DNA of 64,000 bases from Actinomycetota bacterium (GCA_019347575.1 JAHWKY010000008.1:1-64000), one strand, 5' to 3'; numbered from the stretch's first letter, positions 12,342 to 19,580 are shown. The notes: generated by a model not told the origin, from the letters alone. Numbers and translations are program-made.

Positions 12342-13154
12342 CTACTCGGAGGCCGGCCCTTCGAAGGCAGGGGGGCGCTTCTCGCGGATGGCGGCCATGC
12401 CCTCGCGGACGTCGGGGCCCGAGAAGCCCAGGAACTCGTAGGCGAGGGACGCGTCGAAGGTCGGACCGAACGTCCGCAGCCAGTTGTTGAGGGTCAGCTT
12501 GGTGAACCGGATGGCGGACTGGCTGCTGGCGGCGAGCTTGCGGGCGACCTCCAGCGCCCGATCGCGGGTCGCGCCGTCGTCGACGACGAGGGAGACGAGT
12601 CCGATGCGCTCGGCTTCCTCCCCCGACACCGGCTCGCACGTCAGCAGGTGGTACTTGGCCTTGGCCATGCCGCACAGCAGCGGCCACACGATGGCGGCGT
12701 GGTCGCCTGCGGCGACGCCGAGGCGCGTGTGCCCGTCGATGATGCGCGCGCTGCGCCCCGCGATCGAGATGTCGGCGAGCAGCCCGACGACCAGGCCGGC
12801 ACCGACGGCCGGACCTTCCATCGCGGAGACGATCGGCTTGGCGCAGTTGATGACGTTGTAGACCAGGTCCCGTGCCTCGCGCAGCACGCGGATGCGTGTG
12901 GCGAAGTCGTCGGCCATGTCGCGGACGAGATCCAGGTCGCCCCCGCTCGAGTAGACCTCACCCTCGCCTCGGATGATCGCGACGCGCGTCTCCGGGTCGC
13001 GATCGACCTCGAGCCACACCTCCGCGAGCTCGCGGTGACCGTCGTGGTCGAGTGAGTTGAGCCGACCGGGGTTGTCCATGATGATCTCGAGCAGGTGCTG
13101 CTCGGGGCGTTCGATGCGCAGGTTGGTGAAGCGTGCGTAGCGATCGTCGGTCAC
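12342..13154 (-). CDS. enoyl-CoA hydratase/isomerase family protein
   Basis: A 270-residue crotonase-fold protein. The oxyanion-hole segments are visible as [15 protein letters not shown] and [23 protein letters not shown], and [21 protein letters not shown] covers the active-site helix region. In this sequence the usual catalytic Glu of hydratases is not obvious at the second position, so isomerase or another crotonase activity is possible. GTG at 13154 follows a GAGGAGG about nine bases upstream. With the acyl-CoA dehydrogenase downstream it suggests a short acyl-CoA degradation set. Confidence 0.88.
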
Positions 13155-13315
13155 GGCTCGAGCCTCCTCGGATGCGTCGCATCCTGACACACCGGCGCGC
13201 ACCGACTAGACCACGCGAGCGACCTTGGCAAGAAGAAGATGTAGAAGTTGCTGCATTCCTGACCGAACTACCCGTAGTCTTCCGCGTGGCAGCCACTCCG
13301 TCAGGGAGGGATCGC

Positions 13316-13570
13316 GTGGCACCAGCGAAGAAGTCGGCCAAGAAGAAGACCACCAAGAAGGCCCCGGCCAAGAAGAAGTCGCCTGCGAAGAAGAAGGCGA
13401 CGAAGAAGAAGGCCCCGGCCAAGAAGAAGTCGACGAAGAAGGCCCCGGCCAAGAAGAAGGCCAGCAAGAAGAAGGCCACGAAGAAGAAGGCCCCGGCCAA
13501 GAAGAAGTCGACGAAGAAGGCCCCGGCCAAGAAGAAGGCCACCAAGCGCAAGTCGACGAAGAAGAAGTAA
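13316..13570 (+). CDS. histone H1-like lysine/alanine-rich DNA-binding protein
   Basis: An 84-residue protein made almost wholly of Lys, Ala, Pro, Thr and Ser in repeats such as [19 protein letters not shown]. It has no folded domain. Such tails bind DNA non-specifically and compact the nucleoid, as in bacterial H1-like proteins and the C-terminal tails of actinobacterial HU. No HU core is present upstream, so it stands alone. GTG at 13316 follows GGGAGGG at ideal distance. Nearly every Lys is AAG, and the gene has a 64-base internal duplication. A strong terminator follows. Confidence 0.85.
13400..13541 (+). repeat. 64-base direct duplication inside the histone-like gene
   Basis: Positions 13400-13463 are repeated without visible change at 13478-13541 (78-base period, in frame). 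This makes the protein length prone to change by slippage or recombination. Confidence 0.8.
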
Positions 13571-14639: not shown

Positions 14640-16351
14640 GTGTCCGCCGAGGCTGAACGGCCCGTGCTCGAGCGCGTCGACGCCGACGCGGAGTCTGCGG
14701 CTGCCCCGGAAGCCGGACACCAGGAGGGCGCTCGCCGTCGACGCCCGACCGGCGAACCCCCTCCACTACCGGCTGCCCAGCGCTGGCGTGGGTACCGCTG
14801 GGGGATCGTGGCCTTCATCGCTGCGGTTGCTTCGCTGTTCGCGCTGGCGTACAGCGACAGCGATGTCGTCGCCCGCGCCGACGAGGCGCTCAACCGGGGC
14901 GCGGTGGCGCTGCGCACGGACCTGAGCGTCGCGCTCGCGGAGGTCCTCTCGGGTCTGACCAACGAGTGGACCCTGCGGATCCTGCGGTGGGGGACCATCG
15001 CGGTGCTGCTCGCTGTCCGGCGCATCCGTCACCTGCTGGTCTTCGTGGGCGCGATCCTCGTGGTCGAGTGGGCGACCGCCCTCCTCAACTACGCGATCAC
15101 GCGACCCCGGCCGATGGTCCCGATCGTCGGTGCGTGGGAGGGCTTCAGCCACCCGTCCCGTCCCGTCGCGGGCCTGGTCGTGACGCTCATCGGTATGCGC
15201 AGCGTGCTCGTCCCGCCCGGCCCGTGGCGCGGTCGCGTCGCCTCGATCATCGGAGTTCTGACCGCGGTGGTCGGGATCGCGCGCGTCCTGCTGGGCGTCG
15301 ACCACCCGACCGACGTGCTCGTCGCAGCCGCCCTCGGCGCCGGCGTCGGGTTCCTCGCGTTGCGACTCCTCGCACCGAGCAACATCGTGCCGGTGGTGTA
15401 CCGGAGGGGGGAGACCGCCCACGTCGACCTGACGCCGGAGCGCCTCGCCGCGATCCGTGACGCCGCCCGCGACCAACTCGGCCTCGCGGTCGCCGACATC
15501 GAACTGCACGCGACGGAAGGATCAGCCGGATCGACGCCGCTGCGGGTGCAGCTCGCAGACCCGAGTACGGAGCGAGACACCGTCTTCGCCAAGCTCTACA
15601 CCCACCACCACGTGCGCTCCGATCGCTCGTACAAGTTGGGGCGCCTGCTGCTCTACGGGGCGTTGGAGGACGAGGCACCGTTCGCGAGCGTGCGCCACCT
15701 CGTGCTCTACGAGGACCACATGACGCGGGTCATGCGCGACGCCGGGCTGCCGGTACCGGCGCCGCTCGGGATCATCGAGATCACCCCGGCACGCGAGTAC
15801 GCGATCCTGTTCGAGTACCTCGCCGACGGTGACGAGCTCGACGCGGTCGAGGTGGACGAGGAGCTGATCGACCAGGCCTGGAGCTGGTCCAGAACCTGTG
15901 GGGCGCAGGGATCGCTCACCGCGACCTCAAGCCGGGCAACCTGCTGGTCGTCGACGGGGACCTCCGACTGGTCGACACCGCCTTCGCACAGGTGCGCCCT
16001 TCCCCGTGGCGGCAGGCGGTCGATCTCGGGGCGATGATGCTCGTGCTCGCGCTGGGGTCGGACGCCGAGACCGTCTACGCGCGTGCGAGCGAGCGCTTCA
16101 GCCAGGAGGAACTCGGCGAGGCGTTCGCGGCCACGCGCGGGTTCGCCATACCGGCTCAGCTCCGCGACAGGCTCGAGGTCGATGGCCGCGACCTGCTCGG
16201 CCGCTTCCGCGAGCTGGCGCCCGCGCACGCCCCGATCCGCATGCACCGGTGGGGGCGGCGGCGGATCGCAGCCGCCGTCGGCGTGGTCCTGGCCGCGGCG
16301 CTGTTCGGGGGGCTGACGTGGGTGTCGTTCACGACGGCGGGGATGCTGTGA
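14640..16351 (+). pseudogene. PAP2-like membrane domain fused to a protein-kinase-like domain, frameshifted near 15878
   Basis: From GTG 14640, residues 50-250 form a six-helix PAP2-fold domain (ITRPRPMVPIVGAWEGFSHP, ARVLLGVDHPTDVLVA), then a kinase-like domain. The frame runs into nonsense after EELIDQAWSW; shifting to the frame used from 15880 restores ELVQNLWGAGIAHRDLKPGN and LVDTAFAQ, and continues through a C-terminal membrane helix to the stop at 16351. One missing C in the GGCC at 15876-15878 explains it, either true mutation or sequence error. The PAP2 motifs are degenerate: no Lys before RPRP, SGH replaced by HPS, and the last His replaced by Asp with His shifted by one. The kinase loop HRDLKPGN is intact. 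If the frame is repaired it is a 570-residue protein. Confidence 0.75.
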
Positions 16352-16896
16352 AGACGTCGACTCTCGCCGTCGTGTTCGCGCTGGCGGTCAGCGTCGGCTG
16401 TGAAGGCGACCTGCCCGCCTCAGCGCCGACGTGCGATGCCCTCGAGACCGTCGCGACGCAGGCACAGGCGTTGCCCGCTGCCGAGCAGCTCCCCTGCCTG
16501 GAGGAGGTCCCCCTCGGCTGGACCGTCACGACGTTCGAGGTCGAGCGCGGCGTCGCCAGCTTCAACCTCAGTCACGACATCGCGGGGAGCGACGTCGTCG
16601 TGGTGGCACTGATGGAGCGATGCGTCTCCGCCGAGCAAGCCGAGCCGGTCGAGCTCGCGCCCGGCGAGGACCAGGAGCGGATCCACGTGCAGTCTCAGAC
16701 CACGTACGAGGCCGAGCGCTTCCACGCGATCGAGGGTGGCTGCATCGTCACGACCCTCGCGTTCGACGGAGAAGGGTGGGGTAACGCGCTCGAGCAGATC
16801 GAGCCCGTGCTGACGACCACACCACGTGACGTTCTCGCGGAACGCCTCCGTGAAGCGTCCGATGGCGCGCTGGACCTCGACCGCATGCGACGTTGA
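16348..16896 (+). CDS. probable lipoprotein of unknown function
   Basis: This 182-residue protein starts VKTSTLAVVFALAVSVGCEG, a short signal peptide ending at a cysteine, so lipid attachment is likely although the lipobox is not canonical. No known domain is recognised; five further cysteines occur, including EQLPCLEE, MERCVSAEQ and EGGCIVTT. The GTG start overlaps the stop of the PAP2-kinase gene by three bases (CTGTGA), so the two are translationally coupled and probably work together at the membrane. Confidence 0.75.
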   Translation: MKTSTLAVVFALAVSVGCEGDLPASAPTCDALETVATQAQALPAAEQLPCLEEVPLGWTVTTFEVERGVASFNLSHDIAGSDVVVVALMERCVSAEQAEPVELAPGEDQERIHVQSQTTYEAERFHAIEGGCIVTTLAFDGEGWGNALEQIEPVLTTTPRDVLAERLREASDGALDLDRMRR

Positions 16897-16930
16897 CCCG
16901 GCGGAGGCCACGGCGCCGCCGCGAACCTGG

Positions 16931-18016
16931 TCACGTCCGTGACGCGGAGCGCTCGACGTCATCTGGCCCCACCGACGCACCGTCCTCACCCTCGCGCCAA
17001 TCGCTGCGGTGGCGCCACACGAGGTAGGTGAGCCCGCCGAGCGGCACGGGAAGCAGGTAGGTCAGAGTGCGGAAGGCCAGCACAGCGGCCACGACCAGGC
17101 TCTTGTCCGCCCCCATCGCCACGAACGCCCCGACGTAGCCCAGCTCGATCATGCCGACCGCTCCTGGCGTCAGGGGGATGGCGGTGACGAGCCGAGCGAA
17201 CGCGAACCCGGCCAGCGCCTCCGCGAAGCTCAGCTCGTCCGCGCCGACACCAACGAGGCGCAGCGTGGTGTACAGCACAGCGAACAGCGACAGATGTCCG
17301 ACCACCGTGGCGATCGTCAGGACGTGCCACCGGCGCTGGAGCAGCTCGATGGAGTCCTCGCGGAAGCGTGCCGCCTTGTCGTCCCAGTCCTGGACCGGGC
17401 CCTTGCCGGCGAGACCGATGATCTTCGAAGCGACGTTCCCGGCCACCGCGCCGACCCGGCGTGCCAACTCCTCGCTACGGAGCACGAGGTAGAGGAGGAC
17501 GACCGCGACACCGAGGACGAGCAGTCCGATGACGCTGACGACGGCCAGACGGCCGTTCCCTCCGCCGGTGAGCGCCAGCAGAGCCAGTGCGACGATCGGC
17601 ATCCCGAGCTTGACGAAGTTGTTCCACACGGCGGTCACGAGCACGTAGCGCCCGATCTCGCCTGGGGCGAAGTCCCACGATGCGAGCATCGCCGTCGACA
17701 CGCCCACGCCCACTCCCCCGCCGGCGGGGACGGTGTTGGCCACCGCGGTGGACGAGAGGTTGACGGTCGCCGCTTGGCCGAAGCTCAGGCCGGGCAGCGC
17801 CGCCATCGTGACCCACCAGTAGGTCACCTGGTTCCACAGCGTCACGGCGGCGAGACCGGTCCACGCGAGCGCGCCGATATCGCGGAGGTGGCGCCACACC
17901 TCCCGCATGTCGGTGATCCTCGGAAGGACGCCCACGAAGATCCCGACGACGATCGCGACCGCGAGCGCGGCCTTCAACATCCTCGTCGTGCGTGACGGGT
18001 CCGATGAACCGGACAC
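16931..18016 (-). CDS. UPF0104 / lysylphosphatidylglycerol synthase-type transmembrane protein
   Basis: The 361-residue protein has about eight membrane helices and the family's landmarks: NLSSTAVANTVPAGGGVGVGV, RLVTAIPLTPGAVGMIELGYVGAFVAMG and a C-terminal YLLPVPLGGLTYLVWRH. It corresponds to the membrane (flippase-like) half of MprF without the catalytic lysyl-transferase half. GTG at 18016 follows GGGGAGGT. It lies between, and on the opposite strand from, two PAP2-kinase genes; a role in moving or modifying envelope lipids is an inference from family and context. Confidence 0.88.
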   Translation of the reverse strand: MSGSSDPSRTTRMLKAALAVAIVVGIFVGVLPRITDMREVWRHLRDIGALAWTGLAAVTLWNQVTYWWVTMAALPGLSFGQAATVNLSSTAVANTVPAGGGVGVGVSTAMLASWDFAPGEIGRYVLVTAVWNNFVKLGMPIVALALLALTGGGNGRLAVVSVIGLLVLGVAVVLLYLVLRSEELARRVGAVAGNVASKIIGLAGKGPVQDWDDKAARFREDSIELLQRRWHVLTIATVVGHLSLFAVLYTTLRLVGVGADELSFAEALAGFAFARLVTAIPLTPGAVGMIELGYVGAFVAMGADKSLVVAAVLAFRTLTYLLPVPLGGLTYLVWRHRSDWREGEDGASVGPDDVERSASRT

Positions 18017-18155
18017 GGGACCTCCCCTGGGACCGCTCCAATGTGCCCGAGCCGATCGTCTGACGTGCCCTGACCACGCGGCCATCCGGGCCGTGACCGG
18101 CCCGCAGCTACCTTCCCCGTCACGCCGCCCCATCGTCGGGTGCCAGGAGCGTTCT

Positions 18156-19580
18156 GTGCCGGAGAAGTACGCGGACTCTCCGATGCGTCGTCAGCGCGTC
18201 CGACACGCCTCGGACGTGGTCCGCGTCGCGGTCGGGGTCATCACCCTCGCGCTCGCGTCACTGCCCATCCGACCCGACCGCGTCGGGCGCTCGGAGACCG
18301 GCGCCTTCGACCTGATCAACGGCATCACGGACCTCGTCTACGCCCCCGTCTGGGTGGTCATGCAGCTCGGGGCGTTCTTCGCGGTACCGGTGCTGGTCGT
18401 GCTCGCGCTGATCCTCGGACGTCGGCGGCTCGCGCTCGACCTGGGTGTCGTCGGCACGGCGTCGTGGCTCATCGGCCGGGTCCTCAAGGACGCGTTCGGC
18501 CGGCCGCGCCCCGGTGGGCTGCTCGAGATCGTCACGGTCCGCGGCAGCGAGGCTGTGGGCATGGGCTTCGTCTCGGGCCACACCGCGGTCGCCGTCGGTC
18601 TCGCGACAGCGGCGGCCCCTCACCTGCCGCGGCGCTACCGCTGGATCCTGTGGGTGCTGGCGAGCGTGGTCGGGTTGTCGCGGATCTACGTCGGGGCACA
18701 CCTGCCGCTGGATGTCGTCGGTGGTGCGGGGCTGGGGTTCGCGGTCGGGGCGCTGTTCCGCCTCACCATCGGCACGCCCACCGGTCGCCCCGAACCGGCA
18801 CGTGTCGAGGCCACCCTCACGAAGCTGGGGTTCGGCATCAGCAGGCTGGAACCAGCTCACGTGCCCGCACACGTCTCCGCTCCCTACCACGCCCACCTCG
18901 ACGACGGCAGCCAGGTGTTCATCAAGCTGGTCGCGGAGGAGATCCCCGACCGCGACCTGATCTACCGCGCGTGGCGCGCGGTCGCCCGCCGCCGATCGAA
19001 GCACGAGCAGCGCTTCCGCTCGCCACGCTCGCAGGTCGATCACGAGGCCGCGCTCGCGCTCGCGGCGGAACGCGCCGGCGTGCGCACACCAGAGGTGATC
19101 GCGGCCCGCAGCCTCGACGGAGGAACGGGCCTCCTGGCGTTCCGGTGGGTCGAGGGCCAGTCGATGGAGGCGAGCGCGTCGGTATCGCGCGACGACCTGA
19201 GTGCGTTCTGGGAGCAGGTCGACACGCTGCACCGGGCGGGCATCGCTCACGGCGGACTCGTCGGTGCGAACGTGATCCTCGGAGAGGCGGGGCCGTGGCT
19301 GGTCGACTTCGGCTACGCCGAGATGCTCGCCGACGACCTGCTCCTCGAGGAGGACGTGCTCGAAGCGCTGATCTCGCTGTCGCTGCGGTACGGACCGGAT
19401 GAGGTCGTCGCCACCGCGCTCGAGGTGCTCGGACCCGACCGCGTCGACCGGGCTCTGGCTCATGGTGACGACGCCCGCCTCAGCCCGGCGACGACCGAGG
19501 AGTTGCGCGACCAGCCGGAGGTGCTCGATCGGCTCGTCGCCGTGCGCGCGTCCACGAGCGTCGCCCCCGAACGCAGCTGA
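18156..19580 (+). CDS. PAP2 phosphatase domain fused to a kinase-like domain
   Basis: A 474-residue protein. Residues about 30-215 are a PAP2 domain with complete motifs: KDAFGRPRP, GFVSGHTAVAVG and SRIYVGAHLPLD, so lipid-phosphate phosphatase activity (for example on undecaprenyl or phosphatidylglycerol phosphate) is plausible. Residues about 225-474 are kinase-like, with VFIKLV as the probable ATP-binding Lys, but the catalytic loop reads HGGLVGANVIL, lacking the usual Asp, while the metal-binding VDFG is kept. It is therefore the mirror image of the first paralogue. GTG at 18156 follows AGGAG. Confidence 0.85.
   Translation: MPEKYADSPMRRQRVRHASDVVRVAVGVITLALASLPIRPDRVGRSETGAFDLINGITDLVYAPVWVVMQLGAFFAVPVLVVLALILGRRRLALDLGVVGTASWLIGRVLKDAFGRPRPGGLLEIVTVRGSEAVGMGFVSGHTAVAVGLATAAAPHLPRRYRWILWVLASVVGLSRIYVGAHLPLDVVGGAGLGFAVGALFRLTIGTPTGRPEPARVEATLTKLGFGISRLEPAHVPAHVSAPYHAHLDDGSQVFIKLVAEEIPDRDLIYRAWRAVARRRSKHEQRFRSPRSQVDHEAALALAAERAGVRTPEVIAARSLDGGTGLLAFRWVEGQSMEASASVSRDDLSAFWEQVDTLHRAGIAHGGLVGANVILGEAGPWLVDFGYAEMLADDLLLEEDVLEALISLSLRYGPDEVVATALEVLGPDRVDRALAHGDDARLSPATTEELRDQPEVLDRLVAVRASTSVAPERS

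Follow-up and report, generated by a model that had tools for sequence, protein, structure and literature searches.

A conserved actinobacterial envelope gene module with a putative kinase and an intact PAP2 domain on separate proteins beside a flippase-like gene

A locus of four genes (positions 14,640 to 19,580) in a 64,000-nucleotide stretch of an Actinomycetota bacterium (GCA_019347575.1 JAHWKY010000008.1:1-64000, hereafter the window; the assembly holding it is 4.9 Mb) is, judging from sequence comparison, one copy of a conserved actinobacterial module. The module consists of a PAP2–kinase fusion protein (K1) and a lipoprotein (LIP), usually together with a flippase-like protein (FLP) and a live PAP2 domain, and sometimes with an OpuAC lipoprotein. 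By its motifs, catalysis is divided between proteins: K1 is the only consistently intact kinase, and the intact PAP2 domain sits on a separate protein, here a second PAP2–kinase fusion (K2). The occurrence together of a kinase, a phosphatase, a flippase-like gene and an outside lipoprotein suggests a role in controlling an envelope lipid. Our leading reading, built on sequences and structure models and held tentatively at close to even confidence, is that K1 is a sensor of such a lipid that controls the flippase or its partner, with the live PAP2 domain as the dephosphorylating enzyme.

In the window, K1 is encoded on the plus strand in two parts. The first (14,640–15,878) comprises a PAP2-like pseudo-phosphatase membrane domain and the N-lobe of a RIO-like kinase, and the second (15,878–16,351) holds, in a shifted frame, the kinase C-lobe, which includes AHRDLKPGN, followed by a C-terminal transmembrane helix. 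All three PAP2 motifs are broken, as an earlier note on this DNA had claimed: C1 reads NYAITRPRP without the catalytic lysine, C2 reads HPSRP in place of PSGH, and C3, ARVLLGVDHPTD, has an aspartate for the nucleophile histidine. The Pfam PAP2 score is barely above the cut-off (27.8 versus 27.2 bits). The same note described the kinase loop HRDLKPGN as intact; the loop is present, and intact in all scorable relatives, but it lies outside the open reading frame that starts at 14,640 and so in another frame than the PAP2 half. The coding frame switches from that of 14,640 to that of 15,878 within 15,870–15,886 (+), at about 15,878. The shifted frame is stop-free, shares 58–65% identity with an intact relative and overlaps the start of LIP at GTGA, which argues for a recent or artefactual break; K1 occupies a single frame in genome G042 and many others. 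The break may be an assembly error or mark a recent pseudogene. Programmed frameshifting was considered and rejected, as visual inspection showed no slippery site and a second assembly (L136, 7,321–8,966), in which K1 also forms two overlapping frames, is split at a different position. Upstream of K1 lies a repetitive Lys/Ala-rich open reading frame (13,133–13,570, +) that resembles a histone H1-like tail protein.

Searching the class yielded K1 genes in G000, G005, G018, G031, G042, G051 and G053, and a phylum-wide profile search of 396 genomes added many more, with up to three copies per genome. Motifs were scored in neighbourhoods retrieved across the phylum, with a duplicated G042 row counted once. 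The C1 lysine is found in none of 36 scored genes and the C2 histidine in 1 of 37, and the C3 nucleophile is absent from all 36 (Asp in 30, Asn in 4, Ala and Phe in 1 each), so that K1 does not carry the motifs of an active PAP2 phosphatase (C1 KX6RP, C2 PSGH, C3 SRX5HX3D). Nevertheless, almost every K1 keeps the C1 Arg-Pro and C2 Ser, and most keep the C3 Arg and Asp, a pattern that suits a phosphate-binding pocket without catalysis. In the kinase half, HRDxKxxN and the Mg-binding Asp occur in 36/36 scored genes and the beta3 Lys in 35/36, the sole exception sitting at the L136 frame break, while DFG is replaced by D-x-A/F. By these motifs K1 qualifies as an active eukaryote-like or RIO-type kinase, the window copy having its loop out of frame. 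The kinase half is also the better conserved (mean major-residue frequency 0.72, versus 0.50 for the PAP2 half). The alignment over the family that the earlier note had called for thus gives a dead PAP2 half in 36 of 36 K1 genes and an intact kinase loop wherever one could be scored, and invariant kinase residues combined with universal PAP2 loss indicate strong selection on K1. As far as sequences go, the division of labour is a pattern of the family, not a quirk of the window.

A model of the K1 kinase domain (pLDDT 88) has RIO1 and protein kinases as its best PDB matches, the likeness to RIO/Bud32 being remote (Foldseek TM ~0.4–0.55), and profiles of the Kdo/WaaP and APH small-molecule kinases give weak scores too. 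A lipid or sugar substrate is possible for the putative kinase; a protein substrate is at least as likely as a lipid carrier, because the fold is nearest to RIO1/Bud32. Several K1 genes depart from the usual layout. Those of G031 and G005 have an N-terminal extension that looks cyclase-like by eye and gives nothing significant in Pfam, and some members of the window's family (L068, 569–1,030; L067; L071) carry an extra soluble N-terminal region of ~150 aa, likewise without a Pfam match. L112 (7,556–13,408) and L114 each have two K1 genes, one at either end of a set made up of LIP, PAP2 and FLP; the PAP2 half of the second K1 diverges further (FPSWP).

The gene after K1 encodes LIP (16,348–16,896, +). 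Its start overlaps the K1 stop codon (GTGA), which couples the two translationally, and it has a lipobox-like Cys, in line with the coupled lipoprotein that had been proposed. Across the phylum LIP follows K1 in 35/39 loci, the remaining four having K1 at a contig end, and in 16 genes it is fused to the K1 C-terminus behind the last transmembrane helix. With the fusion point beyond the last hydrophobic segment, LIP would face the outside of the cell and the kinase the cytoplasm. Several of the LIP-fused K1 paralogues occur alone, without module neighbours. LIP has no match in Pfam, NCBIfam or the PDB sequences. Assignment to a known fold was rejected: the model is confident (pLDDT 93) and its weak matches include LpqN of M. 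tuberculosis and PsbP, at values insufficient for a claim (E about 0.016–0.02, TM 0.33–0.34).

On the opposite strand, FLP (16,931–18,016, −) matches PF03706 over positions 4–302 of 302 (76.7 bits against a cut-off of 33.4) and is a member of that family; its longest open reading frame opens at 18,133, and the GTG at 18,016 agrees with relatives. Of the MprF-type protein described earlier, the flippase domain stands and the synthase domain is absent, and identity with bifunctional MprF was rejected, since PF03706 is the sole match and the MprF score, 41.2 bits, falls far short of the cut-off of 600. FLP is hence a stand-alone PF03706 flippase-like protein. An FLP gene lies within 4 kb of K1 in 21/39 loci, and about half of the K1 loci have no PAP2 or FLP gene within that distance, partly because contigs end. 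The same four genes as in the window recur in G042 (L036), of the same class and another family, where FLP, K1 and LIP overlap on one strand and K2 is divergent from FLP. Gene order, overlap and fusion thus tie the K1 and PAP2 parts to the flippase and LIP.

In 13/39 loci an orphan OpuAC lipoprotein (PF04069, glycine betaine-binding) stands beside K1 within 4 kb, as at L112 (6,474–7,523) and L069 (3,384–4,355), and no ABC transporter was seen among the conserved neighbours. This association, with OpuAC-type scores of 149.5 and 137.6 bits, would fit a system for quaternary-amine (choline or betaine) lipid headgroups in which the OpuAC lipoprotein would bind the ligand. We regard that explanation as very improbable, since the window locus has no OpuAC, nor have two thirds of all loci, the OpuAC genes of the window's own genome are on other contigs, and the conserved neighbours include no choline-lipid enzyme.

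A separate PAP2 gene is found within 4 kb of K1 in 19/39 loci, and in 9 of the 14 loci with full 4-kb flanks (the other 5 have none). All three catalytic motifs are retained in 20/21 full-length neighbouring PAP2 proteins, a set that includes the window K2 and one gene 6 kb away; by the motifs KX6RP, SGH and RX5HX3D, K2 and the stand-alone partners would be active PAP2 enzymes. At a density of ~1.4 PAP2 genes per Mb in ten K1 genomes, chance would account for ~1.4% per locus, and the nominal P for 19/39 is about 2e-25, which is indicative only because the loci share descent. Co-occurrence of the active halves, which the earlier note had suggested looking for, is therefore far above chance. The strict pair of two fusions that it envisaged does not extend in the same way, given that K1 and a PAP2–kinase K2 are found together in three places only (the window, L036 in G042, and L177 in G091, where K1, LIP and K2 stand in a row) and most partners are PAP2-only. 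What holds across the family is a dead-PAP2, live-kinase K1 with a live PAP2 elsewhere. Opposite degeneration of a strict K1–K2 pair was accordingly dropped as a general rule, with most partners PAP2-only and 5/14 loci without PAP2.

In a tree of PAP2 domains, all K1 halves fall into a single clade (99/91), and stand-alone partners with the motif FPSGH form a separate clade that groups with them (100/98, under biased sampling of the outgroup). The remaining partners are intermixed with the PAP2 halves of K2-type fusions, and the K2 proteins of the window and G042 group with a PAP2-only gene of L140 (99/92). This mixing makes it probable that partners have gone back and forth several times between fusion and a PAP2-only form.

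K2 itself (18,156–19,580, +) consists of an intact PAP2 domain (18,432–18,764, +; Pfam 66.1 bits) followed by a RIO-like kinase domain. Its PAP2 motifs KDAFGRPRP, VSGH and SRIYVGAHLPLD are complete and its kinase loop, HGGL, lacks the catalytic Asp, both as first described. The loop reads IAHGGLVGAN (HGGLVGAN at 19,248–19,271, +); the beta3 Lys and DFG are present, and the pairing of HRD Asp and loop Asn expected of an active eukaryote-like or RIO-type kinase is not. The G042 protein reads HGDL, and the change from Asp to Gly, private to the window among the K2 proteins compared, is a two-base difference (GGA versus GAC). Bud32 is the top kinase profile match of K2, and in a contig scan with K2 alone the single match, L005, covered part of the PAP2 region. 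Identity with SepP (NF047884), the top NCBIfam match, was rejected at 51.5 bits against a curated cut-off of 250.

Among K1-bearing genomes, flippase-less K2-type proteins and their close kin number seven (one each in the window and G042, three in G104, two in G091). The PAP2 motifs are retained in 7/7 and the kinase is damaged in 6/7: the window and L178 have no catalytic Asp, and L175, L176, L177 and L180 have no loop Asn. The remaining one, from G042, keeps both residues but ends early. Complementarity with K1 thus recurs, but with most of these kinases damaged the K2 kinase is, on its sequence, a fading extra, not a required part. K2 is divergent from FLP at L176 in G104, and FLP, PAP2 and kinase share one 944-aa open frame at L180 (2,894–5,377) of the same genome, with the flippase first, unlike the usual order in PAP2–kinase–flippase fusions.

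The K2 kinase clade, distinct from that of K1 (100/100) and marked by long branches, is common to these long PAP2–kinase–flippase proteins, named records of which (in Mycolicibacterium and Actinomyces oris) read 'lysylphosphatidylglycerol synthase domain-containing protein'. Both halves are intact in the fusions of G046, G081, G248, G099 and a Mycolicibacterium plasmid. The counter-case to a divided labour, a protein with two intact halves, hence does exist in this second family and never in K1. Other fusions combine a PAP2 domain without motifs with an intact kinase loop (G358, G208), and in all sampled genomes of family f23 and in the window's own family both halves are dead. The f23 fusions retain both dead enzyme halves beside the flippase, which suits a binding or regulatory role. 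On the Mycolicibacterium gilvum plasmid pMSPYR101 (L174, 4,528–7,659), which is mobilizable, an intact stand-alone PAP2 gene directly precedes an all-motif-intact fusion close to a metal-transport gene.

Either half has been lost many times in these relatives, the K2 kinases lie on long branches and the window K1 is itself frameshifted, all of which would agree with ordinary decay, K1 and K2 being relics of an ancestral PAP2–kinase fusion whose opposite losses are coincidental and functionally uncoupled. We consider this improbable. The catalytic residues of the K1 kinase are invariant and its PAP2 loss is universal, PAP2 genes adjoin K1 far more often than chance allows, and the gene order and the fusions recur in several families.

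A more serious rival, although one we think rather unlikely, is a lipid cycle in which the K1 kinase phosphorylates a lipid carrier inside (a polyprenol or lipid-linked sugar, for example), FLP flips it and the PAP2 domain of K2 dephosphorylates it outside. PAP2 enzymes act on lipid phosphates, the live kinase and live PAP2 domain are on different proteins beside a flippase, and the Kdo/WaaP lipid-sugar kinases, which share the fold, score weakly. However, the best fold and profile matches are RIO1, Bud32 and protein kinases, not lipid kinases, the PAP2–kinase–flippase fusions can lose their catalytic halves yet keep the flippase, and many K1 genes have no PAP2 nearby. We favour a lipid-sensing membrane kinase regulating a flippase or phosphatase over a plain cycle of lipid phosphorylation, on the strength of sequences and models: the K1 kinase model resembles RIO1 and protein kinases, LIP is fused like an outside sensor, K1 paralogues exist without a nearby flippase or PAP2, and flippase fusions keep dead enzyme halves. 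In such a regulatory system, the dead PAP2 half of K1 would bind a phosphorylated envelope lipid without hydrolysing it and, with LIP, would sense that lipid or an outside ligand and control the cytoplasmic kinase; the target of kinase regulation would be the flippase or its partner, and, once the lipid had been flipped, the live PAP2 domain would dephosphorylate it on the outer face. More speculatively, and with somewhat less confidence, K1 may represent a bacterial membrane receptor kinase of a new class: a dead lipid phosphatase would serve as its lipid-sensing transmembrane domain, LIP would lie on the outside and a RIO-like kinase on the inside, and its targets would be a flippase and a live phosphatase.

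The component families are known. The closest relatives are the PAP2–kinase–flippase fusions (for example WP_013470206.1 of the M. gilvum plasmid), annotated 'lysylphosphatidylglycerol synthase (transmembrane) domain-containing protein', which hold the same three domain families in one chain and whose kinases group with that of K2, although K2 has no flippase domain; K1, in contrast, forms its own clade, in which the PAP2 half is dead throughout and LIP is the partner. FLP is a full-length match to the MprF flippase domain (PF03706) but lacks the lysyl-phosphatidylglycerol synthase domain. K2 and the other partners keep the motifs of PAP2-type undecaprenyl-pyrophosphate phosphatases (SepP, BcrC/PgpB), but K2 scores far under the curated SepP cut-off and bears a kinase-like domain. 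Among atypical kinases, Bud32 is the best K2 profile and RIO1 is among the best matches of the K1 model, whereas the K1 kinase is membrane-tethered, fused to PAP2 and LIP, and has D-x-A/F for DFG. A parallel in principle would be MviN (Rv3910) of mycobacteria, which has been proposed to flip lipid II and carries a kinase-like regulatory domain; there too a flippase would be under a kinase-like regulator, but its flippase fold and kinase family differ and the likeness is one of analogy only. M. tuberculosis Rv0585c, mentioned in two papers, may be linked to the module. The open-access literature searched held no prior description of a module of PAP2, kinase and flippase, which may still have been described elsewhere, and the module, the universal dead-PAP2, live-kinase design of K1 and LIP are absent from Pfam and NCBIfam. 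The module thus appears to be widespread in actinobacteria and undescribed.

For most actinobacteria, the proteins that move, phosphorylate and recycle envelope lipids are still to be settled. A module with a split between kinase and phosphatase and a link, through fusions and gene order, to a flippase of a family also found in mycobacteria and other actinobacteria offers concrete, testable proteins and residues, and suggests how pseudo-phosphatase and pseudokinase domains get reused as membrane sensors.
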